Shown here: positions 5,162 to 59,492 of the stretch, piece after piece | Layout: each line of letters starts with the position of its first letter | Position numbering within the stretch: the stretch's first letter is position 1 | NCBI RefSeq assembly: GCF_004137765.1 | Contig: NZ_NOIS01000004.1 | Coordinates: 1 to 64,000, forward strand | Source of the DNA: Rothia uropygialis | Lineage (GTDB): Bacteria; Actinomycetota; Actinomycetes; Actinomycetales; Micrococcaceae | Reading direction: 5' to 3' | DNA length: 64,000 nucleotides | The notes under the pieces: generated by a model | What the model was told of the DNA's origin: nothing | What the model saw: the letters and a program-made list of their open reading frames with translations, nothing else | Databases searched by the model: none | Program-made: the position numbers and the translations under genes

Positions 5162-6438
5162 GCTTGAGTATCCTCCTCGTCAACACCGGTATCACCGGAT
5201 CTGTTCTTCCCCGCGCTATCTGCAGGGGTCTGATCCACCGCAATGATGGAAACGGGTTCTTGATCGCGGATCGGTCCGAGATCCGACTCGCTTTCGCGCA
5301 GGTCCTTCTCGGTTGCCTCGTCCAGCTCCGGAAGGCTCACCGTAAATGTCGAGCCCTGTCCTGGCGTCGACCACACAGAGATTTCTCCGCCGTGCTGAGC
5401 CATCACGTGTTTCACGATCGACAGCCCCAAGCCGGTACCACCTGTTTGCCGCGAGCGAGCGGCGTCGACCCGGTAAAAGCGTTCGAATATGCGATCTTGT
5501 TCTTCTTCGGGAATGCCCGGCCCCTGATCCTTGACGGACACGGAAGCCGCGCCGTTCTTGGATCGAATGCCCACACCGATGCGGGTGTTCTCCGGCGAAT
5601 AGCGAATCGCGTTGTCGATGAGATTCCGCAAGGCGGTCATGAGCAACTCCGGGTCGCCGTGAATTGGCCGGGTAGCAGTGCCTCCCACCCGAATCGAGAT
5701 GTTCTTGTTCTCGGCGGTGAGCTTGTTTCGGTCCGCTGCTTCATGCACCAGCTGGTTGAGATCGATGATCTTTCCCTTTTGCACGATGTCCGTGCCTTGC
5801 AACCGCGAGAGTTCGATGATGTCATGAACCAGCGCGGTCAGACGCGCCGCTTCCTTGTGGAGTCTCCGTGTGAAATGCCGTACCGCTTCCGGGTCCCCGG
5901 ACGATCCTTCGATCGCTTCGGCCAGCAAACGGACGGCACCGACCGGGGTCTTGAGCTCATGCGAGACGTTGGCCACAAAGTCTGTTCGGATCGCCTGTGC
6001 ACGAGTGATCTCGGTGCGGTCATCCGCGAGCATCAAAATGTATTCGTCTGCCACGGGTGCTATGCGGACATTCAGCACGAGGACTCCGCGTCCCATCGGG
6101 CCACGAGAGATCTCTACGGTCTTCTCGATAATCACTCCGTCGCGCCGTACCTGACGGATCAATTCGAGCAATTCGGGTTGAGCCAGGCTGTGCCCGCGAA
6201 CCAGGCCGTAGGCATAAGACCCCTGGGACGCCCGTACGACACCGTCCACCGCGTCGACGAGCACGTACGCCTGTCCGACGACGGCCAGTACCTGAGCGGC
6301 ACCATCGCTGATAGTCGGTTCGTCGACCACCGCCCAGTCGGCACGCTGGCGATCGCTTCGGCGCAGGGCGAAGTGGCTGACCAAACCAAGCGCCAACCCG
6401 ATCAGGCCCCACATGAAGGCTAAAGCGACAGAACTCAC
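5158..6438 (-). CDS. senX3: sensor histidine kinase SenX3
   Basis: This is a 426-residue membrane histidine kinase. An N-terminal hydrophobic segment (residues ~4-25) is followed by a PAS-like region (~45-140), the HisKA dimerisation domain with His160 in 'FVANVSHELKTPVGAV', and an ATPase domain with N box 'LRNLIDNAIRYS', G1 'VKDQGPGIP' and G2 'GGTGLGLSIVK'. The tail after ~385 is acidic and variable. The short N-terminal sensor without a large extracellular loop fits SenX3/PhoR-type kinases, which are thought to sense phosphate through the Pst/PhoU complex. It is translationally coupled to regX3. Confidence 0.9.
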   Translation of the reverse strand: MSSVALAFMWGLIGLALGLVSHFALRRSDRQRADWAVVDEPTISDGAAQVLAVVGQAYVLVDAVDGVVRASQGSYAYGLVRGHSLAQPELLELIRQVRRDGVIIEKTVEISRGPMGRGVLVLNVRIAPVADEYILMLADDRTEITRAQAIRTDFVANVSHELKTPVGAVRLLAEAIEGSSGDPEAVRHFTRRLHKEAARLTALVHDIIELSRLQGTDIVQKGKIIDLNQLVHEAADRNKLTAENKNISIRVGGTATRPIHGDPELLMTALRNLIDNAIRYSPENTRIGVGIRSKNGAASVSVKDQGPGIPEEEQDRIFERFYRVDAARSRQTGGTGLGLSIVKHVMAQHGGEISVWSTPGQGSTFTVSLPELDEATEKDLRESESDLGPIRDQEPVSIIAVDQTPADSAGKNRSGDTGVDEEDTQA

Positions 6439-6498
6439 CCGTACAGCTTAGGCATAAGTATCAACGGAATTGACCCAAATAGTGCCCTGCGCCCCTGG

Positions 6499-6520
6499 GT
6501 TCAACTAAGGTTCACCCAAG
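6499..6520 (+). promoter_or_regulatory. PHO box (RegX3/PhoP binding site) upstream of phoU
   Basis: Two adjacent 11-base direct repeats, GTTCAACTAAG (6499-6509) and GTTCACCCAAG (6510-6520), match the actinobacterial PHO-box pattern in which a response regulator dimer binds two 11-base units. The site lies about 75 bases before phoU and about 60 bases before the divergent senX3-regX3 start, so it could control both. Confidence 0.7.
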
Positions 6521-6593
6521 ACGGGGATCGCGTTTACGCGCGATTGAGACTCTAAGGTAGTAGATCCGTGCCGTCAGGAAAGGACCGTTAATC

Positions 6594-7259
6594 GTGCGCA
6601 AAGTTTTTCAGGCCGAGCTCCAACAAGTGGGCGACGACCTCGTCGAAATCGCGACCCTCGTGGAGGCTGCGTTCGACCGCGCATCTGACTCGTTGTTGAA
6701 CGCAGACATTCAGGAAGCCGAAGAGGTCATCTCGAATGACGCGCGCATCGACTTCCTGCAGAACCAGCTCGACGAGCGTTCCATCGATCTCCTCGCGCTC
6801 CAAGGCCCCGTCGCCTCGGACCTTCGCATGATCGTGGGAGCCCTTCGCATGAGCGCCTCGCTCGAACGCGCCGGGGACCTCGCCCGCCACGTCGCACAGG
6901 TCACGCGGCTCCGGTATCCCGAAGCCGCCGTCCCGGAAGACCTCGTCCCGACCTTCCAGGAAATCATCGACAACGACAAGACGATCATCAAGAACGTCAT
7001 CCAATTGCTCGAAACCCGCGAGTTGGGCTACGCCGACGAGATCTACACGGCCAAAGGCCGCATCAACGTGCTGCACGAATCGGTTTTCTCCCATATTGCC
7101 GGCGCCGAATGGGGGTCCAATGCACAGACCACGATCGATATGACCTTGGTTTCCCGTTACATGGAGCGCTTCGGCGACCACGGCGTCTCGGTGGCTCGCA
7201 AAGTCACATACTTGGTCACCGGCGAGTGGGACTCAGCGCCGACGGCCAGCCAGTCGTAA
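6594..7259 (+). CDS. phoU: phosphate uptake/signalling regulator PhoU
   Basis: This is a 221-residue, all-helical PhoU protein made of two three-helix PhoU repeats (roughly residues 8-95 and 115-205). Metal-binding acidic motifs are seen, including 'RMSASLERAGDLARHVAQ' and 'SRYMERFGDHGVSVA'. PhoU links the Pst phosphate transporter to the sensor kinase and dampens the response when phosphate is plentiful. The start is GTG at 6594 with AGGAAAGGA upstream. It is divergent from senX3 and follows a PHO box, so it is likely RegX3-controlled. Confidence 0.94.
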   Translation: MRKVFQAELQQVGDDLVEIATLVEAAFDRASDSLLNADIQEAEEVISNDARIDFLQNQLDERSIDLLALQGPVASDLRMIVGALRMSASLERAGDLARHVAQVTRLRYPEAAVPEDLVPTFQEIIDNDKTIIKNVIQLLETRELGYADEIYTAKGRINVLHESVFSHIAGAEWGSNAQTTIDMTLVSRYMERFGDHGVSVARKVTYLVTGEWDSAPTASQS

Positions 7260-52200: not shown

Positions 52201-52273
52201 GCGCCTTTAGCTCAGTTGGTAGAGCATCGGACTTTTAATCCGTGGGTCGTGGGTTCGAGCCCCACAGGGCGCA
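52201..52273 (+). tRNA. tRNA-Lys (TTT)
   Basis: This is a 73-base cloverleaf: acceptor GCGCCTT pairs with AGGGCGC (one G-U), the anticodon loop CTTTTAA gives anticodon TTT, and the T arm is GTGGGTTCGAGCCCCAC. CCA is not encoded. The gene is intact. Its 3' 34 bases plus six following bases recur at 59415-59454, marking it as the integration site of the downstream element. Confidence 0.96.
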
Positions 52274-52279
52274 CTGTTT
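52240..52279 (+). repeat. att site (left copy), 3' end of tRNA-Lys
   Basis: These 40 bases (CCGTGGGTCGTGGGTTCGAG... to ACTGTTT) are repeated exactly at 59415-59454 in the same orientation. The element between the repeats carries an integrase stub, conjugation gene remnants and IS elements, so this pair is read as attL/attR. Confidence 0.9.
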
Positions 52280-52285
52280 CGTGGG

Positions 52286-52319
52286 ATCCCGTTCCGGCTT
52301 CGGCCGGGGCGGGATTTTT
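52286..52319 (+). terminator. tRNA-Lys terminator
   Basis: A 13-bp stem (52286-52298 with 52303-52315), a TTCG loop and a T run follow the tRNA. A similar terminator with small differences follows the right att copy at 59459-59492. Confidence 0.8.
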
Positions 52320-52516
52320 CACGTTCCTTCGCGGGACCTCAATAGGCGCCCAAGCCACCGATCCGAGCAAGTCCCCCAGAGTAATGCCTAGATGACCAGC
52401 GATGACGCCAAGATCATGGATGGTAAACGCAGTCTTCCCATGTAGCCGGGCAGACACTCCGGATTGACTGACGCCCAATGCGGTTGCTAGTTCAGGTTGA
52501 TTGACAGCACGCCTAG

Positions 52517-53651
52517 TTGTTGTGGGTCATGACGTTGTAGGCACTGGATCGGGAATGAGGGAAAGGGCCTCGACTGGTCAGGATGGAGGCCTCTAGTGTA
52601 ACCCTCCGACCAGCAGACCCGTTCCATGACCCACGCTCATGCCCAGCTGACCCCGGCGGGAAGGCACCGCCTCGTCACCGGTATCACCGAGCACGCCCGT
52701 CCGCTCTCCCTCCTCACAGGCGAAACCGGTGTGGCCCGCTCGATGCTGAGCAAATGGGTCATCGGTATCGTGGCGAGGGCCTCGAGGCTCTCAGTGATCG
52801 CTCCAGTGCCCCCAGCAGGCGTCCGAGACGACTACCGATCAAGGCGATCGATCCCATCGGCACTTGGCGACGGGAGCACAAAAGGTCCGCCCGCCGGATC
52901 CACCTCGAACTCACCACCGGCGGCTACCACTGCTGCCTATACACTGTGGGCAGATGGCTCAACCGACTGGGAATCTCACGGTCTCGTGACCTCGACCCAA
53001 ACGGAGGGAACAACCGCCAGGCCGGCAGGATCACCGCCCGGTTCCCCGGCCACATGCTTCACCGGGATGTGAAGAAGCTCGGCGCGATCCCCGATGGTGG
53101 TGCCCTGGCGGGCTCATGGGCGCGGCAGCAAGCCTGTCCTGGCAGGCCAGCGGGCTCACAAGCAGCGCGTGGGATGCACCTATCTCCGCTCAGCCGTCGA
53201 TGGGTACTCCCGCCTGGCATACACCGTAGCCCTCACGGATGAGACCGCGTCCACGACCGTCGGGGTCTTCACCCCGAGCCAGGGCGTTCTTCCCAGCCCA
53301 CGGCAACACCTGGATCGTGCCCGTGACCCCCGATCACGGCGCAAACTTATCGGATCGCGGCGTTGACTCGGACCGGGCAGGCCTTGGCTTCTTGCCATCA
53401 GCGCATCCGGGCCTACACGCCCCGGCCATACCGGGATGGTCGAGCGGTATCAGCGGCTGCTGGCCGAGGAATGCCTCTACGCCCGCGTCTATGACTAGCA
53501 ACAGGCCCGTTAGGATGCGATGGGGTGTGGGTCCATCACTAGAACTATCATCGGCCCCACCCCTCGTGTGCCGGCCAGTCACCGGCCCGCCGCGTCCACG
53601 AACGTGTCGACAACCTCATACCCTCATACCCTCATACAATTAGATCAGTTT
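52517..53651 (+). pseudogene. degenerate IS481-family transposase and element
   Basis: Fragments in successive frames match an IS481 transposase: 'MTHAHAQLTPAGRHRLVTGI' (from 52626), 'RYRGEGLEALSDRSSAPSRR', 'HRDVKKLGAIPDGG', 'LRSAVDGYSRLAYTVAL', and finally 'YHRPHPSCAGQSPARRVHER' ending at 53651. At least four frameshifts separate them, so the gene is dead. The ends show weak inverted similarity (52519-52538 against 53613-53632). The right end carries three tandem copies of CCTCATAC (53614-53637). The insertion disrupts the XRE regulator. Confidence 0.8.
53614..53637 (+). repeat. tandem repeat (CCTCATAC)x3
   Basis: Three exact head-to-tail copies of an 8-base unit lie at the right end of the dead IS481-type element. 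They are within the last codons of the transposase remnant. Confidence 0.9.
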
Positions 53652-54116
53652 GAAGCAAAATACGGGACACCAAATGCGGTCCACGCGAAGAACGACGAAC
53701 TGATCGCTTCAGACGCGCGACACCAGGAGCTTCAGAAGACAATCAAAGTCGTTACGCGGGATCGGGGCGAAACAGAGCATGAACTCGCCAAATCTGAAGT
53801 GACTTACCACATCGTTATTACCGATCGAGAAACCGCTTACGCTCACTACGTACTGATGAAACACTCCACGCCCGAAATGGCCGGAACTATGGTTGCAGAT
53901 GAGAATCGTTCCAAGAAATTAACGGCAGCGCAATCTAAAGCAGATTTAGACATTTTGAGAAAGGGAGCCCGACCGACAGAATGGCAGACGAGAAGGAAGA
54001 CGATGAGTCAGGGCCTCGAATCCGCGCCACGTTCCACGTCGACCGCGAGACGCCCGCGCACCCTGCAACAGTGGGATGAACGGGCATCGCGACAGCGAAG
54101 TAGTCGCCTTCGCTAG
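53640..54116 (+). CDS. hypothetical protein fragment, 5' end lost to IS481-type insertion
   Basis: An open frame of about 158 codons continues from the IS boundary to TAG at 54116 without its own plausible start. The protein is polar and helical ('FEAKYGTPNAVHAKNDELIA', 'KLTAAQSKADLDILRKG') and Arg/Ser-rich at the end. I recognise no family. Base composition is lower in G+C than the flanking core genome. It may be the C-terminal part of a mobilisation or cargo protein of the element. Confidence 0.4.
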   Translation, partial: LDQFEAKYGTPNAVHAKNDELIASDARHQELQKTIKVVTRDRGETEHELAKSEVTYHIVITDRETAYAHYVLMKHSTPEMAGTMVADENRSKKLTAAQSKADLDILRKGARPTEWQTRRKTMSQGLESAPRSTSTARRPRTLQQWDERASRQRSSRLR

Positions 54117-54386
54117 CAAAAGGCGAGCAACCATCGCAGGAACCACAAAGGAGATCTAAAGACGCAAGTTCCTTGCGGCCAAACGAACAAGATGGGTAAT
54201 TGATCGATTGCAGAAGCTAAATGAACCATGGCCAACACGAAGGTTGTCTATGCAAGTAAATTTCAGAATCGACGATTTGGTTGCAGAGAGCGAGATATAT
54301 TTTAAAGTTTGGGCATAGTTGATGTGCGTCACACCCATGGTGTTAGGGTCTAGGTGTCCGTAGGATACATAGGAAGAGGAAGACTC

Positions 54387-54926
54387 ATGAACATCAGGTC
54401 CGTAAAAGTAACGACTGCTTCGCTGGTGTCGATCGGGATGCTTTTCGGGGTGGCCACCCCCAGTCTCGCCGCTAACCAGATCTCATCAAACAGCGCCTCT
54501 CAGTCGGGCGATCAACGAGGATCCGAAGAGGGAATGCTTAAGTTCGTCGATGCCTTGGATAAATTGCCCGAAGATCTCAAAATGGCGGATCCTGCAACTA
54601 CGCCAAACTACGAGCAGCGAGTCACGGACGAGCTCGCCAAGCAGGGAATCACCCTTAAGGCCGGGGCTTCCGGGAGTGGTGTCAATACCTAGGCTAGCGT
54701 TGGCGACTGCGTCACCGCCGCTGTGCCCTTCGCGTTTAGCCTGGGCTTCCCAGCTTTCAAGATCGTGAAAGTGGTTCGTACTGCCTACAAGGAGTGGGGT
54801 TCGATGTCCATGGCTGTCAAGGCGATCCAGGGTGGTGAGGGTGCAGCCGAGCTTGGCGAAGAAGGACTCAATATTCTCTCCGAGCTCACATGTGTCGGTG
54901 CGATCTACAGTGCATGCATTGCGTAA
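54387..54926 (+). pseudogene. secreted bacteriocin-like precursor with an in-frame amber codon (cassette A)
   Basis: From ATG 54387 (ribosome binding site AGGAAGAGGAAG) the frame encodes a clear signal peptide ('SLVSIGMLFGVATPSLAANQ', AxA-type site near residue 28), then a polar region. TAG at 54690-54692 (codon 102) is followed by 77 more in-frame codons to TAA at 54924-54926. The part after TAG is protein-like: hydrophobic and Gly-rich with three Cys ('VGDCVTAAVPFAFSLG', 'LSELTCVGAIYSACIA'). This resembles a pro-region followed by a mature bacteriocin-like peptide. The gene downstream is coupled and encodes a four-helix membrane protein. Either this is a recent nonsense mutation or the codon is read through; the sequence alone cannot tell. 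Confidence 0.65.
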
Positions 54927-54935
54927 GGAGTAGTC

Positions 54936-55442
54936 ATGGATAACACAGAGTACATGGCACCAAGTGTAGGTGCAGCGGTAGTTGGATCCGGCGTGGTCGG
55001 CGCCTTTACAGCGATACCTACTTTTGTCGTACTTCTCGTGTTAGGTTTTCTGATTCGCGAAGTTGATCTCGTGTCATTCTGTGTCATCGCACTTGTCACT
55101 GGTGTTGTGTCTGGAATAGCTACGCAATTGCTGACGAGGCAAGAACAGTCGAAAACCAATAAGATTATGCTCTCTGGTGGAAGACCGATCTTTTATGCCT
55201 TTGTTCCGCCGTTGCTTATTGGTGCCATCATGTCGGTAGTTCTTATGCATCAACCGATCTGGATCCTTTTTGGAGCAATCGCCGGGTTGTTGGGAACCAC
55301 CCCCATTGCGCTCATTACGAAGCCGTGGAAAGCTGAAATCTCTGATGAGGAATATCGGCGCCGCAGTAATGCTATGAAGGATTCGATGAAGGAAGGATTT
55401 TCTGAGGTTCGTTCCGAAATGCGACAGAAAAAGCAAAATTAG
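54936..55442 (+). CDS. four-helix membrane protein, candidate immunity protein of cassette A
   Basis: This is a 168-residue protein with four hydrophobic helices (~10-40, 46-66, 84-103, 106-125) and a charged cytoplasmic tail of ~40 residues ('AEISDEEYRRRSNAMKDSMK'). The ribosome binding site AAGGAG overlaps the TAA of the preceding precursor (GCGTAAGGAGTAGTCATG), so translation is coupled. Small membrane proteins in this position are usually immunity proteins that protect the producer. I recognise no named family, so the role is an inference. Confidence 0.65.
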   Translation: MDNTEYMAPSVGAAVVGSGVVGAFTAIPTFVVLLVLGFLIREVDLVSFCVIALVTGVVSGIATQLLTRQEQSKTNKIMLSGGRPIFYAFVPPLLIGAIMSVVLMHQPIWILFGAIAGLLGTTPIALITKPWKAEISDEEYRRRSNAMKDSMKEGFSEVRSEMRQKKQN

Positions 55443-55458
55443 ACACATGAGCACTTGA

Positions 55459-55492
55459 TCGGTGCCCTCGACGCATAAGTCGAGGGCACTGA
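55459..55492 (+). terminator. terminator after cassette A
   Basis: A stem of 11 perfect pairs (55462-55472 with 55479-55489) plus flanking G-U pairs lies just after the membrane protein gene and before the convergent DUF4913 gene. T run is weak. Confidence 0.6.
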
Positions 55493-55498
55493 TCCCCG

Positions 55499-55864
55499 TC
55501 ACGTCCGATGGGCATTTAAATAGCCTAATGCCCTAAGCCTGAAGTCGTTTCCACCTCCATATTCATTCAGGATCCGAGGTAGATTATCCGGGAAGCTACT
55601 CGAAACCTCCTCTCGTATCTGCCGCTGTCGATGCTCCCGATGGGAGTACCCGCAAACCCGGAAGATCCCCGTGCTCGCGTCGAACAGCCAGCGGTGGTGA
55701 GCGTCCCAGTGGTGCACCCACCACCCAGAAAGCTCATTGGCGGCAGAGGCCTGGATATAAGCCACATGTAAAGCCCGCATTCGAGCGGCTGCCTCCGGAT
55801 GCTTCCACCACTCAGGGCACGAACGCGTGGCCGCACCGGAAGCGTCCTGCTCGATGATGCTCAA
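55499..55864 (-). CDS. DUF4913 domain-containing protein
   Basis: This is a ~121-residue protein whose pattern 'CPEWWKHPEAAARMRALHVAY' and 'LSGWWVHHWDAHHRWLFD' matches DUF4913, a family found on actinobacterial plasmids and integrative elements next to conjugation genes. Function unknown. The only start in this frame is TTG at 55864. A 28-codon frame from ATG 55947 ('MASDGSQEKGQERHTDGSQD...') ends in TGA overlapping that TTG and looks like the acidic N-terminus usual for DUF4913 proteins. The gene may therefore be frameshifted near 55862. It follows the coupling-protein remnant. Confidence 0.7.
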   Translation of the reverse strand: MSIIEQDASGAATRSCPEWWKHPEAAARMRALHVAYIQASAANELSGWWVHHWDAHHRWLFDASTGIFRVCGYSHREHRQRQIREEVSSSFPDNLPRILNEYGGGNDFRLRALGYLNAHRT

Positions 55865-55936
55865 GTCTCGACCACCGAGGCGACAAAATCCTGGGAGCCG
55901 TCAGTATGACGCTCTTGACCCTTTTCCTGAGACCCG

Positions 55937-56634
55937 TCACTGGCCATGCGATGATGTCTCGATTCCTTGTATCCCGGCATTGATTTTCAGCCGCTCGATC
56001 ACCGGTCCCAACTTATCGACAAGCACGGCGTCGGAGAACCAATACCTGGCGCCAACTAACCCAGCCTCCCTATCGCGTGTCATCACCAAAATCTTCCCAA
56101 GGGAGAGAAACGCCAGATCCGCGGCTGTGAGAATCCGGCGTTGCTGATGGTGCGTCGACGAACCGGTAGACCCCCACTGGTCCGGTGTCTTAGACGTCGA
56201 CGTGTGGTGGATGACGTGCTCATAGTCACCGAGGACTTTAGTCAGCGAATCAAGGAACTTGTCATCCCGGGAACCGCCTCCGTAGACGAACATTGCCGCC
56301 CCCGAGTAGATCGCCTCAAACTCGTCTTTCCCGAACGTTTTGATCCCTGGGCGTAGGTCTGAAGATAACTCGAGATCACGATCCCCAGCGACCCGGCATA
56401 GGAATACCAATCTGCAAGCTTCGGGAGAACCACAGCGTTACCCAGCTCGTCGAGTTCCATCACCAACGGAACCTCCAGCCGACTCCTGACAGTACGGGCG
56501 GCCGCAGTGACGGCGGCCCGGAAAACGTCCCACACCAACGTCGACACCAACACAGAAGAGCTGGCCCGGTGTCGATCACCCAGGAGAATCAACGTGTCTG
56601 TACTCGTGGCGAACCGTGCCGGATCGAAAACCTT
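55937..56634 (-). pseudogene. broken type IV coupling protein (VirD4/TraG-like), C-terminal part
   Basis: On the minus strand the first frame reads 'PLVMELDELGNAVVLPKLAD', the Walker B region of a conjugative coupling ATPase ('DELGN'), then 'GIVISSYLQTYAQG'. A one-base shift near 56343-56350 moves the match to the next frame, 'GIKTFGKDEFEAIYSGAAMF' and 'VYGGGSRDDKFLDSLTKVLG'. This is the TraM-recognition/VirD4 C-terminal half. The 5' half including Walker A is missing: the IS3-family element begins at 56634. It shows that the element was once conjugative or mobilisable. Confidence 0.8.
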
Positions 56635-56668
56635 GGGACTGCCGCACGATCAGGTGACAGTTCGGGGG

Positions 56669-57526
56669 TCAGGCCGCGAGAGCGACCGGGTTCATGATGG
56701 TCTCGTACTCGATGGGAGTCAATCGGCCCAGGCGGGCCTGTCGGCGGCGTCGGTGGTAGGTCCGCTCGATCCAGGTGATGATCGCGATCCGCAGTTCTTC
56801 TCGGGCCCGCCATCGCTTGCGGTCCAGGACGTTCTTCTGGAGCAGCGCGAAGAAGGACTCCATCGCGGCGTTGTCGCCAGCAGCACCGACTTTCCCCATC
56901 GATCCGATGAGGTGGTGACGGTTCAGTGCGTGCACGAACTTCCGTGACCTGAACTGAGATCCTCGGTCCGAGTGCACGATGCACCCGGCAGCGTCGCGAC
57001 GCCTCGATATTGCGTTGTCCAGGGCGTTCACCGCGAGGCGAGCCTTCATCCGGTCGCTGATGGAGTAGCCAACGATGCGGCCGGAGAAGACGTCCTTGAC
57101 GGCGCAAAGGTAGAGCTTGCCTTCGTCGGTCCAGTGCTCGGTGATGTCGGTCAGCCACAGCTCGTTGACGTCATCGGCAGTGAAGTCCCGCTGGACCAAG
57201 TCATCGTGCACGGGCGTGCCCGGGCGCTTCCCGTTCTTTGCCCGTTTCTTGCCGAACACCGACCACCACTGGTTGTCTCGGCAGATCCGCCACGCGGTCC
57301 GCTCGCTCATGCGCTGGCCGGCGGCCTCCACTTCGCCGGCGAGGAACCGGTACCCGAACTCGGGATCATCCAGAGGGGCGTCCAGCAGCGCGTTCGCCCG
57401 GTAGGCCTCGATCAGCTCGGCCTCGGTGACCTGCTGTTTGAGCCAGCGGTAGTAGGGCTGGCGCGAGAGCTTCAGGCCCCGCAGGGACACCGCGACGGGA
57501 ATGCCGTCCGCGGCGAGCTCACTCAC
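56669..57526 (-). CDS. IS3-family transposase OrfB (DDE integrase domain)
   Basis: This is a 285-residue protein with an N-terminal HTH_21-like region ('RMSERTAWRICRDNQWW') and an rve-type integrase core. The DDE residues are Asp in 'ELWLTDITEHWTDEG', Asp in 'GCIVHSDRGSQFRSR' and Glu in 'DNAAMESFFALLQKN'. It is uninterrupted, so it may be active. The GTG start at 57526 overlaps the orfA stop codon (GTGA). In IS3 elements OrfAB is often made by frameshifting. Confidence 0.93.
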   Translation of the reverse strand: MSELAADGIPVAVSLRGLKLSRQPYYRWLKQQVTEAELIEAYRANALLDAPLDDPEFGYRFLAGEVEAAGQRMSERTAWRICRDNQWWSVFGKKRAKNGKRPGTPVHDDLVQRDFTADDVNELWLTDITEHWTDEGKLYLCAVKDVFSGRIVGYSISDRMKARLAVNALDNAISRRRDAAGCIVHSDRGSQFRSRKFVHALNRHHLIGSMGKVGAAGDNAAMESFFALLQKNVLDRKRWRAREELRIAIITWIERTYHRRRRQARLGRLTPIEYETIMNPVALAA

Positions 57527-57831
57527 GAGCGGGTAGTACCTTTTCCCGGCAAGTTCGCCTGAGAGAGATACGCGGCGGCGCGGCGCAAGACCTCATTCTC
57601 CTGCTCCAGCAGGCGAATCTTCTTGCGAGCCTCCCGCAGCTCGGTCGACTCCTCCCGGGTCTTGCCGGGACGGTTGCCGTCGTCGATATCGGCTTGGCGG
57701 ATCCACTTATGGAGCGTCATCTCGTGGACGCCGAAGTCCTTCGCGATCTGCGCGAGAGTGACGCCGTCCTCGCGGGACCGGGCCACGCGCACGACGTCTT
57801 CGCGGAACTCTCGGGGGTAGGGAGCGGGCAT
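57523..57831 (-). CDS. IS3-family transposase OrfA (HTH)
   Basis: This 102-residue protein has a helix-turn-helix ('DGVTLAQIAKDFGVHEMTLH') followed by a leucine-zipper-like helix ('LREARKKIRLLEQENEVLRR') used for multimerisation. It binds the inverted repeats and joins with OrfB to form the transposase. ATG at 57831. Confidence 0.92.
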   Translation of the reverse strand: MPAPYPREFREDVVRVARSREDGVTLAQIAKDFGVHEMTLHKWIRQADIDDGNRPGKTREESTELREARKKIRLLEQENEVLRRAAAYLSQANLPGKGTTRS

Positions 57832-57901
57832 GGTGCACATCCTTCCAGGCCGCCCATTGGGCAAGCCAGACCAGATGTCACCCACCCGTGCGGCAGTCCC
57901 A

Positions 57902-58021
57902 TTCGGTCTGGTGGAGGGCGAGGTGTTGGACCCCGCGTCGTCGTGTATCGATGGTGGTCTCACGGCGCGCTCCAGCACGGAGCCATTCAGCAAATAGGTC
58001 GATGTGGTTCGTCCAGCTCAT
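57902..58021 (-). pseudogene. N-terminal stub of a tyrosine recombinase (integrase)
   Basis: About 40 codons from ATG 58021 read 'MSWTNHIDLFAEWLRAGARR' and 'ETTIDTRRRGVQHLALHQT', the SAM-like core-binding domain that begins many actinobacterial tyrosine integrases. The frame is cut at the right end of the IS3-family element, and the catalytic domain (R..HxxR..Y) is absent from the window. This is presumably the element's own integrase, now dead, which would lock the element in tRNA-Lys. Confidence 0.65.
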
Positions 58022-58084
58022 ACGCAGGTGCATAACGCGCGCGGGGACGGCATTTAACCAACTGTTGCCATGTCGCAGGCACAA

Positions 58085-58307
58085 GCCGCGAAAATCATGT
58101 CGCCAGGACGTGAGGAGGGTGCACCCAGTTCAGGTGGCCAGTTCGCACGTGCACGCTGCGGCAACTACAGACAGTTATAGATCAACAAACTGACCCCAAT
58201 GCTCACTACCAGCAACCAGAAATAATACATATTTTTTCCGAGAGTTTACAAGGTCAAGAACCCACTAAGATATTATTTACATACATACTGGAAAGGAATG
58301 CCGAACT
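58085..58307. promoter_or_regulatory. AT-rich region upstream of cassette B
   Basis: This stretch contains no gene and is richer in A+T than the rest of the window, especially 58195-58290. It includes TATTAT at 58270-58275, a candidate -10 box, with no good -35 at the usual distance. GGAAAGGA at 58290-58297 is the ribosome binding site for the GTG at 58308. A six-codon frame (ATG 58298 to TAA) overlaps that start out of frame. Confidence 0.4.
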
Positions 58308-58769
58308 GTGAAAATTAAGAACGTCCCCCTCTGCGTGCTTGCCATTATAACAGTTCTGCTTTTCGGGTTTTCCTCAGTGAATGCAACAAGCACACCCGCG
58401 ACAACAACCCCTATTGGCGTAACAAGCCCGTGATATCAAGCCCCGGGAACAAGCACCCAGATAGGAGTTAAGTGGGCAGGCAAACAAGGAGCTAAACTCC
58501 TGGCCAAGGCTCTTCGCTCTCCTGCCGCCGATGGAACTATCGACTCACTCCCACTCCTTGACGATGCCGCTCGCGCAAGCCTCAAGACCAACCGGGGTGC
58601 TGTAGCTGACGCACTAGATCAGGTTTCCGAAATTGCAGGGATACCCGAACAGGCCGCCAAACAGAAGCTATTCGATATACTGATCCAAAGCGGTGATGCG
58701 GGGGGGGGTTATTTCCGACGCTTTGTCTACTATCGTTGGCGCAATAGTCTAGCAACCGATCTGGAGTAA
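58308..58769 (+). pseudogene. secreted bacteriocin-like precursor with an in-frame UGA and a G9 tract (cassette B)
   Basis: GTG 58308 follows GGAAAGGA at 10 bases. The first codons form a signal peptide ('VPLCVLAIITVLLFGFSSVN', cleavage after 'VNA' near residue 27). TGA at 58431-58433 (codon 42) interrupts the frame, which continues in-frame for 111 more codons to TAA 58767-58769. The continuation is protein-like ('TSTQIGVKWAGKQGAKLLAK'). Nine G residues at 58700-58708 lie near the end. As written the frame ends '...GGGYFRRFVYYRWRNSLATD'. With one G fewer it would end '...GGVISDALSTIVGAIV' at TAG 58750-58752, a more membrane-active-looking tail. A small gene follows immediately. Function is inferred from this layout. 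Confidence 0.55.
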
Positions 58770-58772
58770 AAT

Positions 58773-59063
58773 TTGGAAAGCGAAGAGTTATTAAACCTCT
58801 CCGAGCGAATTTCCTTGCTCGAGATGACTCGTTCAGTTAGCGATGACGCCCGCCCAGTACACGTCGTCCAGTCCAAATACCAAGTCACGGGGGAAAAATA
58901 CGCGAGAGCTCGTCACATTTTGCACGCTCTTTCAAAACAATGTGAGAAGTCCACTGTTTGGGAATCCTATTCAGCGACCCTTCGGAAGCTAGAAGAGACC
59001 CTTGCCCCCAAGGTGGCCAAGGAACTGCTGGACGCATACATCCAGCAGTACAATTTGGCCTAA
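58773..59063 (+). CDS. 96-residue helical protein, candidate immunity protein of cassette B
   Basis: The start is TTG at 58773, six bases after GGAG (58763-58766), which itself overlaps the end of the precursor frame (GGAGTAA). The protein is soluble, charged and almost entirely helical by composition ('YARARHILHALSKQ', 'YSATLRKLEETLAPKVAKEL'). Size and helical pattern resemble class II bacteriocin immunity proteins, which are four-helix bundles of ~80-115 residues, but I cannot claim membership of a specific family. The tight coupling to the precursor mirrors cassette A. Confidence 0.55.
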   Translation: MESEELLNLSERISLLEMTRSVSDDARPVHVVQSKYQVTGEKYARARHILHALSKQCEKSTVWESYSATLRKLEETLAPKVAKELLDAYIQQYNLA

Positions 59064-59076
59064 CCGTTACCCACAA

Positions 59077-59241
59077 TCAGGAACTTACAGCGGTAGCACG
59101 GGGGCATGCGCCAGAAAACAGGAATGAAGCAACGGCACCGATGGCCGTATATGCGGTGAGTGCATGACCTCGAGCCAGTGGGTCATGTTCATGGCCGGCT
59201 TCGATCTCAACAATCTTCCCGCTCCGGTTGTCGTGGATCAT
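59077..59241 (-). CDS. small single-helix membrane protein (54 residues)
   Basis: ATG at 59241 is preceded on the minus strand by GGGGAGGACCCAGG, a strong ribosome binding site at six bases. The product has a polar, His/Asp-rich start ('IVEIEAGHEHDPLARGHALT') and one hydrophobic segment ('AYTAIGAVASFLFSGA'). Unknown function, but such small proteins occur on actinobacterial plasmids and phage-derived elements. The rest of 59064-59414 shows nothing else. Confidence 0.35.
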   Translation of the reverse strand: MIHDNRSGKIVEIEAGHEHDPLARGHALTAYTAIGAVASFLFSGACPRATAVSS

Positions 59242-59414
59242 CCTGGGTCCTCCCCTGTTGTTGGTTGATACGTCGTGTTTTCGGTGCATGGTCATGAATA
59301 GCCTCCTGGGTTCAATATCTCGTAAGCGTCGTCGTGTCTCGTCGGCACAAGCGGGTAGCCCATGCATGAACGCGGCGGGAACGATTGAAATTTGGGGGTA
59401 GCGAAACGTTTAAA

Positions 59415-59454
59415 CCGTGGGTCGTGGGTTCGAGCCCCACAGGGCGCACTGTTT
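59415..59454 (+). repeat. att site (right copy)
   Basis: This is an exact 40-base copy of 52240-52279, the 3' end of tRNA-Lys plus six bases. The sequence before it (TTTAAA) only partly matches the anticodon region, so no intact second tRNA is present. The terminator after it is a variant of the tRNA-Lys terminator, as expected for the original chromosomal right flank. Confidence 0.9.
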
Positions 59455-59458
59455 TTGA

Positions 59459-59492
59459 ATCCCGTCCCGGCTTGTGCCGGGGCGGGATTTTT
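59459..59492 (+). terminator. terminator following the right att copy
   Basis: A 13-bp stem with one G-U pair and a T run. It is homologous to 52286-52319 after tRNA-Lys but differs at several bases, so one copy came with the element and one belonged to the host. Confidence 0.75.

Follow-up and report, generated by a model that had tools for sequence, protein, structure and literature searches.

A bacteriocin-type cassette of Rothia uropygialis with a stop codon at the toxin leader/core boundary and an open immunity-type gene

Among described bacteriocins, those closest in layout to the locus considered here are made as long pro-peptides. Closticin 574 of Clostridium tyrobutyricum is reported to combine a signal peptide, a long pro-region and a C-terminal mature peptide of about 80 residues, and processing of closticin 574 and closticin-like peptides is described as probably extracellular (PMC10888436). 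Pro-PAMP of Propionibacterium jensenii is described as a 198-aa precursor with a 27-aa signal, whose active C-terminal part is freed outside the cell (PMC5756557). Orphan bacteriocin immunity is also already known: an Escherichia coli study reports plasmids on which colicin or microcin immunity is retained and the toxin is absent or heavily truncated, and presents the distinction between toxin loss and immunity gain as important for bacteriocin ecology (PMC12546727). The pneumococcal scb and blp systems are described as having broken producer functions and retained immunity genes (PMC11796350, PMC4739728). Pneumococci with an intact but unactivated scb immunity are reported to be killed (PMC11796350). 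In blp, by the published account, the lesion affects the transporter, ComAB can still serve as exporter when blpAB is broken, and the cheater reading has been put in doubt (PMC4739728).

The window, meaning the whole 64,000-nucleotide stretch analysed here, comes from a 2.96 Mb genome of Rothia uropygialis, assembled in 10 contigs with a stated completeness of 99.96% and a contamination of 0.1%. It contains a two-gene locus, designated cassette A, with a GC content of 51.9% against 60.7% for the window. Its parts are as follows.

54387..54689, + strand: leader (signal peptide plus pro-region), 101 codons from the ATG at 54387, now an open frame of its own owing to the stop
54690..54692, + strand: in-frame TAG, six codons 5' of the first conserved core Cys
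54693..54923, + strand: core (mature peptide region), 77 codons; its three Cys are residues 6, 67 and 75 of the core, and a TAA at 54924-54926 closes the frame
54936..55442, + strand: intact gene for a 168-aa membrane protein, the immunity-type partner, from the ATG at 54936
55457..55494, + strand: perfect 16-pair hairpin 3' of the immunity gene, terminator-like but without a T run

A preliminary description, made from the letters alone, had reported a 101-codon leader frame, one TAG and 77 further in-frame codons with three Cys, and all of these coordinates were confirmed. The overlap that it reported between the toxin stop and the partner's ribosome binding site also holds, the TAA lying within TAAGGAG, whose GGAG is that site. 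The four helices that it assigned to the partner fit the hydropathy profile, in which two long hydrophobic stretches (6-68 and 83-129) would accommodate about four membrane helices without resolving them. The promoter scan around cassette A returned no sigma-70-type match, and the terminator scan there returned no terminator with a T run. Next to the cassette, the listed frames run on the opposite strand and comprise DUF4913 and TraG/TraD pieces. The window core and partner match no named family in Pfam, NCBIfam, PHROGs or PADLOC, the partner having no Pfam family above cut-off. Pfam includes a model for the lactococcin 972 family, and it matched neither the window pieces nor 13 further homologue precursors. 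The SpoIIM/DUF95 and transporter neighbours of the circular (AS-48-like) gene set, as that set is given in PMC10888436, do not occur at cassette A.

The preliminary description had reasoned that chance would not keep a frame open and protein-like beyond a stop. That argument is weak, since 77 codons stay open in 4.1% of 20,000 base shuffles, and among the 2728 inter-stop runs of the GC-rich window 15.7% reach that length. It is because of homology that the 77 codons can be said not to be chance: searched alone, the piece matches 8 of 98 other genomes at E <= 1.2e-6, and two Cys are kept in 11/11 aligned cores. By this measure the part after the TAG is real coding sequence. The two residues, C6 and C75, are among the four invariant columns of the core alignment (A5, 11 sequences), and the window core is predicted to fold as a five-helix model with a mean pLDDT of 84.5. 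Nor is the TAG where every homologue stops. Precursors of 172-191 aa without interruption, each followed by a membrane gene, occur in G033 (Rothia endophytica, L017), G003, G013 (Kocuria massiliensis, L018), G026 (a Rothia MAG, L019) and the Brachybacterium loci L020-L022, of which L022 belongs to Brachybacterium paraconglomeratum. In L017-L022 signal peptide, long pro-region and core lie in one frame, whereas the window frame is cut by the TAG. A full-length model built from 15 intact precursors, with the window excluded, finds the window precursor at 122.1 bits with one stop. Window and intact homologues also share a pro-region motif around LPEDLK.ADP.TTPNYEQR, the region reading LDKLPEDLKMADPATTPNYEQR in the window and LDQLPEDLKTADPKTTPNYEQR in K. 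massiliensis. Cassette A thus carries the family's two-Cys core, pro-region motif and adjoining A4-type membrane gene.

Profile comparison suggests a link between the family and known bacteriocins by an indirect route. Aligned by hhalign, the window family (A5) matches a second subfamily (A7) at an E-value of 8.8e-10, against 0.42 and 0.19 in controls with the immunity alignment. The closticin 574 sequence matches A7 at 1.5e-20, and it does not score above shuffled sequences when compared directly with A5. The window family therefore appears distantly and indirectly related to closticin 574-type bacteriocins, through the second subfamily. The class II bacteriocin pairing proposed in the preliminary description stands as regards a secreted precursor with a small immunity-type membrane protein, and its layout is refined to the long pro-peptide type of closticin 574 and pro-PAMP. 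Extracellular processing, as suggested for the closticins, is likewise proposed for the cassette A family; the pre-proteins differ in size, 309 aa being given for closticin 574 (PMC10888436) against about 180 in the window family, the window gene itself being interrupted. Pro-PAMP, compared by its published description (PMC5756557), resembles the window family in being actinobacterial and in having a long precursor.

In the family's intact state, the first gene would encode a secreted pro-peptide of about 180 residues, in which a signal peptide and some 70-80 residues of pro-region precede a C-terminal core of about 75. The two Cys near the core ends probably form a disulphide. The core would be released outside the cell by proteolysis and would act on the membrane of related bacteria, and the membrane protein encoded by the next gene would protect the producer. 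In cassette A no toxin is expected, because the TAG at the leader/core boundary ends translation 5' of the core, leaving the leader alone to be secreted. Since the immunity gene remains whole and has a ribosome binding site to itself, the cell could stay resistant and non-producing. We therefore read the locus as a two-gene bacteriocin-type cassette from a mobile island, its toxin recently inactivated and its immunity gene kept, and give this reading a probability of about two in three. The preliminary description had suggested a strain with the toxin broken and the immunity gene whole, and the TAG beside an open 168-aa partner bears this out.

Since bacteriocin activity in the window family is deduced from sequence, the secreted product might instead have another role, such as that of a signal or structural peptide with a membrane partner. 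Some members do lack an immunity-type neighbour: by profile, neither neighbour nor remnant accompanies the intact toxin-like genes of G009, G022, G025 and G120 (two) or the broken ones of G020 and G247. A closticin-like peptide of Bacillus altitudinis is also reported as inactive on the two indicators tried (PMC10888436). We nevertheless regard a non-antibacterial role as distinctly unlikely. The two-gene layout, the indirect profile link to closticin 574, carriage on tRNA islands and the occurrence of a second-subfamily relative on a mobilizable plasmid all speak against it, as does the patchy spread of the family, the core being found in 14 of 396 genomes and 9 of 109 genera of the order (source genome, G000, included). 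In a sample of the class it was found in 4 of 394 genomes.

Cassette A lies in an island of 7.2 kb (52231-59454) set in a tRNA-Lys gene, which also holds a second, unrelated cassette, designated B.

52201..52274, + strand: tRNA-Lys (ttt), the island attachment gene as judged from the repeats
52231..52279, + strand: left direct repeat, the 3' end of tRNA-Lys, 49 nt, 96% identical to the right copy
52286-52319 and 59459-59492: a further 34-nt repeat, terminator-like, beside the left and right repeats
58308..58769, + strand: cassette B secreted-peptide gene, broken by TGA at 58431-58433 and by a probable frame change at a G run near 58700
58773..59063, + strand: cassette B partner, 96 aa, intact, immunity-type by position only
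59406..59454, + strand: right direct repeat, 49-nt copy of the 3' end of tRNA-Lys

The island further contains a broken transposase, TraG/TraD pieces, DUF4913 and transposase genes with an integrase core. Cassette B (58308-59063) starts 2.9 kb downstream of cassette A. Its toxin gene has a signal peptide and a 111-aa open frame past the TGA, and an intact relative of this gene occurs in G011 (L114). Its partner scores above cut-off for no Pfam family, and the 34 other genomes of the genus yielded no sequence relative of it. The cassette A type occurs a second time on the source genome's own contig C2 (L112 4768-9698, about 84.8-89.7 kb), with the toxin truncated and the partner intact, in an island bounded by repeats of the tRNA-Arg(tct) 3' end (86% identical over 51 nt) and carrying a phage-integrase piece. 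All three cassettes found in the source genome, in a search confined to cassettes of these kinds, thus have a broken toxin gene and an open partner. This bears on whether the TAG is real. A sequencing or assembly error of one base is a conceivable source of the stop, as a single substitution would suffice. We consider it very unlikely, given the completeness, low contamination and 10-contig assembly of the genome and given that its two further toxin genes are broken by lesions of other kinds.

The preliminary description had offered two origins for the stop, a very recent nonsense mutation or programmed readthrough limiting the amount of full-length product. It had proposed a comparison with related strains; the intact homologues, which come from other genomes, have sense codons in the junction region. 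Besides the window, the genus has nine strong core matches (E < 1e-30); seven of these are uninterrupted at the junction, and the remaining two are G007, with a TAG, and G020, with a frameshift. The G007 gene carries a TGA at codon 51 and its TAG at codon 111, five codons 5' of the first core Cys, as against six in the window. G020 has lost one base in the signal region and gained four bases about 5-8 codons before the first core Cys. Three of the five point lesions of these genes and the window thus fall within about seven codons at the junction. Some cluster this tight would arise by chance with a probability of 0.035, a post hoc figure that leaves uncounted the larger lesions of the own C2 copy, G006, G010, G437 and G387.

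This clustering, the TAG of G007 near the same spot and the apparently undecayed cores of window and G007 are what programmed or leaky reading of the UAG would have in its favour as a means of limiting the amount of full-length precursor. Its difficulties are the second stop in G007, the seven open junctions, and the absence of anticodon CTA, which would read UAG, from the 47 tRNA genes identified in the source genome with the Rfam tRNA model and then ARAGORN. RNA folding near the TAG is also weak against shuffles (z -1.07 for the 80 nt after the stop, z 1.21 for 61 nt around it), and the titles and abstract openings surveyed gave no paper on readthrough of a bacteriocin gene. Readthrough is accordingly left unsupported, and we judge it highly improbable. 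The same verdict applies to a related idea, that boundary stops are selected in themselves, the leader alone being secreted, perhaps with a trace of toxin from leaky UAG reading. Such selection would explain the TAG 5-6 codons before the Cys in two Rothia species, the frameshift in a third and the undecayed cores beyond the TAGs, and we give it very little credence.

On the evidence of junction, tRNA genes, folding and divergence, a recent nonsense mutation fits better than readthrough, and this half of the earlier proposal gains support from the open junctions and the undecayed cores. The stops look young because the profile gives the window and G007 cores scores similar to those of intact cores (107.5 and 113.7 bits, respectively, compared with 109.1-119.3, every one of these cores being a row of that profile). 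Those of G007 also look young because the divergence between G033 and G007 is large beside them, in both the toxin (pN 0.223, pS 0.77) and the immunity gene (pN 0.235, pS 0.764).

The immunity profile (A4) was searched against 35 genomes of the genus. It identified 11 genes in 9 genomes, 0 with an internal stop, which make 10 cassettes, since two of the genes stand in tandem in G010. The toxin is intact in four (G033, G003, G013, G026) and broken in five, and in G019 the immunity gene has no toxin trace. The five lesions are the TAG of the window, loss of the second half of the core in the own C2 copy, two stops in G007, a remnant of about the last 20 core codons in G006, and a frameshifted remnant before two tandem immunity-type genes (L031, L033) in G010. 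In G006 and G010 what is left of the toxin is short and matches weakly (iE 0.0094 and 0.08, respectively); both remnants were also read by eye. Outside the genus but within the order, both genes are intact in G411, G384, G111 (two), G298 and G120, the toxin is broken and the immunity gene intact in G437, and both are broken in G387. Altogether, both genes can be recognised in 17 cassettes, of which 10 are intact, 6 have only the toxin broken (window, own C2, G007, G006, G010 and G437), 1 has both broken and 0 have only the immunity gene broken. A sign test on 6:0 gives a two-sided p of 0.031, or 0.0625 for 5:0 without the window cassette that seeded the search.

The partners of G411 and G437 were counted as intact, the one TGA noted in each match lying beyond the end of a 165-aa frame, as was that on G298 contig C3, where a TGA and a TAG were noted in the match and an open frame of 159 aa begins at a TTG. 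The count leaves out G019, the partnerless toxin-like genes listed above, the second subfamily with its short or unseen partners, and the intact Brachybacterium loci L020 and L021, which come from another collection. It also leaves out 13 of 19 non-Rothia immunity-like rows, which have no toxin match and whose E-values (8e-23 to 6e-7) are too weak to call them immunity proteins. Among the excluded immunity-like rows, the G342 match is split in two, and a stop interrupts the match in three others, two from G315 and one from G298. These rows and the partnerless toxin-like genes weigh against the toxin-loss reading.

A tree of 14 immunity proteins requires 5 changes of the broken-or-absent label, which is no more clustered than in shuffles (330 of 500 as low). 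The own C2 and G006 genes are neighbours on this tree, and their lesions differ, because C2 keeps the front of the toxin and G006 only its end. The five changes and the differing lesions fit independent toxin losses. The recurrence of the pattern in several relatives suggests strains that have lost the toxin as a weapon and retained immunity as a shield.

An intact immunity gene next to a broken toxin could also mean simply that toxin breakage is recent. If the cassette as a whole were decaying neutrally, the toxin would by chance have been hit first, too little time would have passed since, and immunity would bring no benefit. The decaying island around cassette A, with its broken transposase and TraG/TraD pieces, is in keeping with this, as are the intact-like core scores of the window and G007 and the double breakage in G387. 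Three observations make it unlikely, although it deserves serious weight. The reverse state was seen in none of the 17 cassettes. In G006 the toxin is nearly gone, yet 190 immunity codons remain open. The immunity genes of G006 and own C2, both now beside differently broken toxins, have diverged to a pS of 0.717 with a pN of only 0.154. Toxin loss with the immunity gene kept, possibly under selection, is the reading that we prefer.

Rock-paper-scissors models of bacteriocin ecology expect resistant non-producers, and these strains would exemplify them in nature, provided that their immunity genes protect. Cassette A resembles the E. coli plasmids in retaining immunity beside a lost or truncated toxin, and differs in that the E. 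coli cases, as reported, are colicins and microcins on plasmids (PMC12546727), whereas the Rothia partner is of membrane type on tRNA islands. The scb and blp systems, alike in their broken producer functions and retained immunity genes, serve as cautions for a cheater reading of cassette A (PMC11796350, PMC4739728). The missing sigma-70-type promoter match also counts against that reading, as unactivated scb immunity is reported to give no protection (PMC11796350). Within open-licence PMC, no paper on closticin together with Brachybacterium was found, and among the matches listed for Rothia and bacteriocins no title or abstract opening concerned the cassette A family. In that literature, neither the family nor the recurrent loss of its toxin seems to have been described. 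Rothia and its relatives thereby gain a bacteriocin-like family that has no curated model, and a natural set of intact and broken copies in which toxin loss can be tested against immunity gain.

Three further observations concern the wider family. The core homologues at L006 (G022), L007 (G009) and L010 (G020) share the same neighbouring gene and have no immunity-type neighbour, the G020 copy being broken by two frameshifts. In a pair of second-subfamily precursors, L046 (G033:C3) and L043 (G027:C2), one has a stop inside the signal peptide where the other has a sense codon. Near the intact cassette of L019, positions 5846-6979 encode a 377-aa secreted-type protein with a hydrophobic C-terminal part between two Cys, which may be another long pro-bacteriocin.
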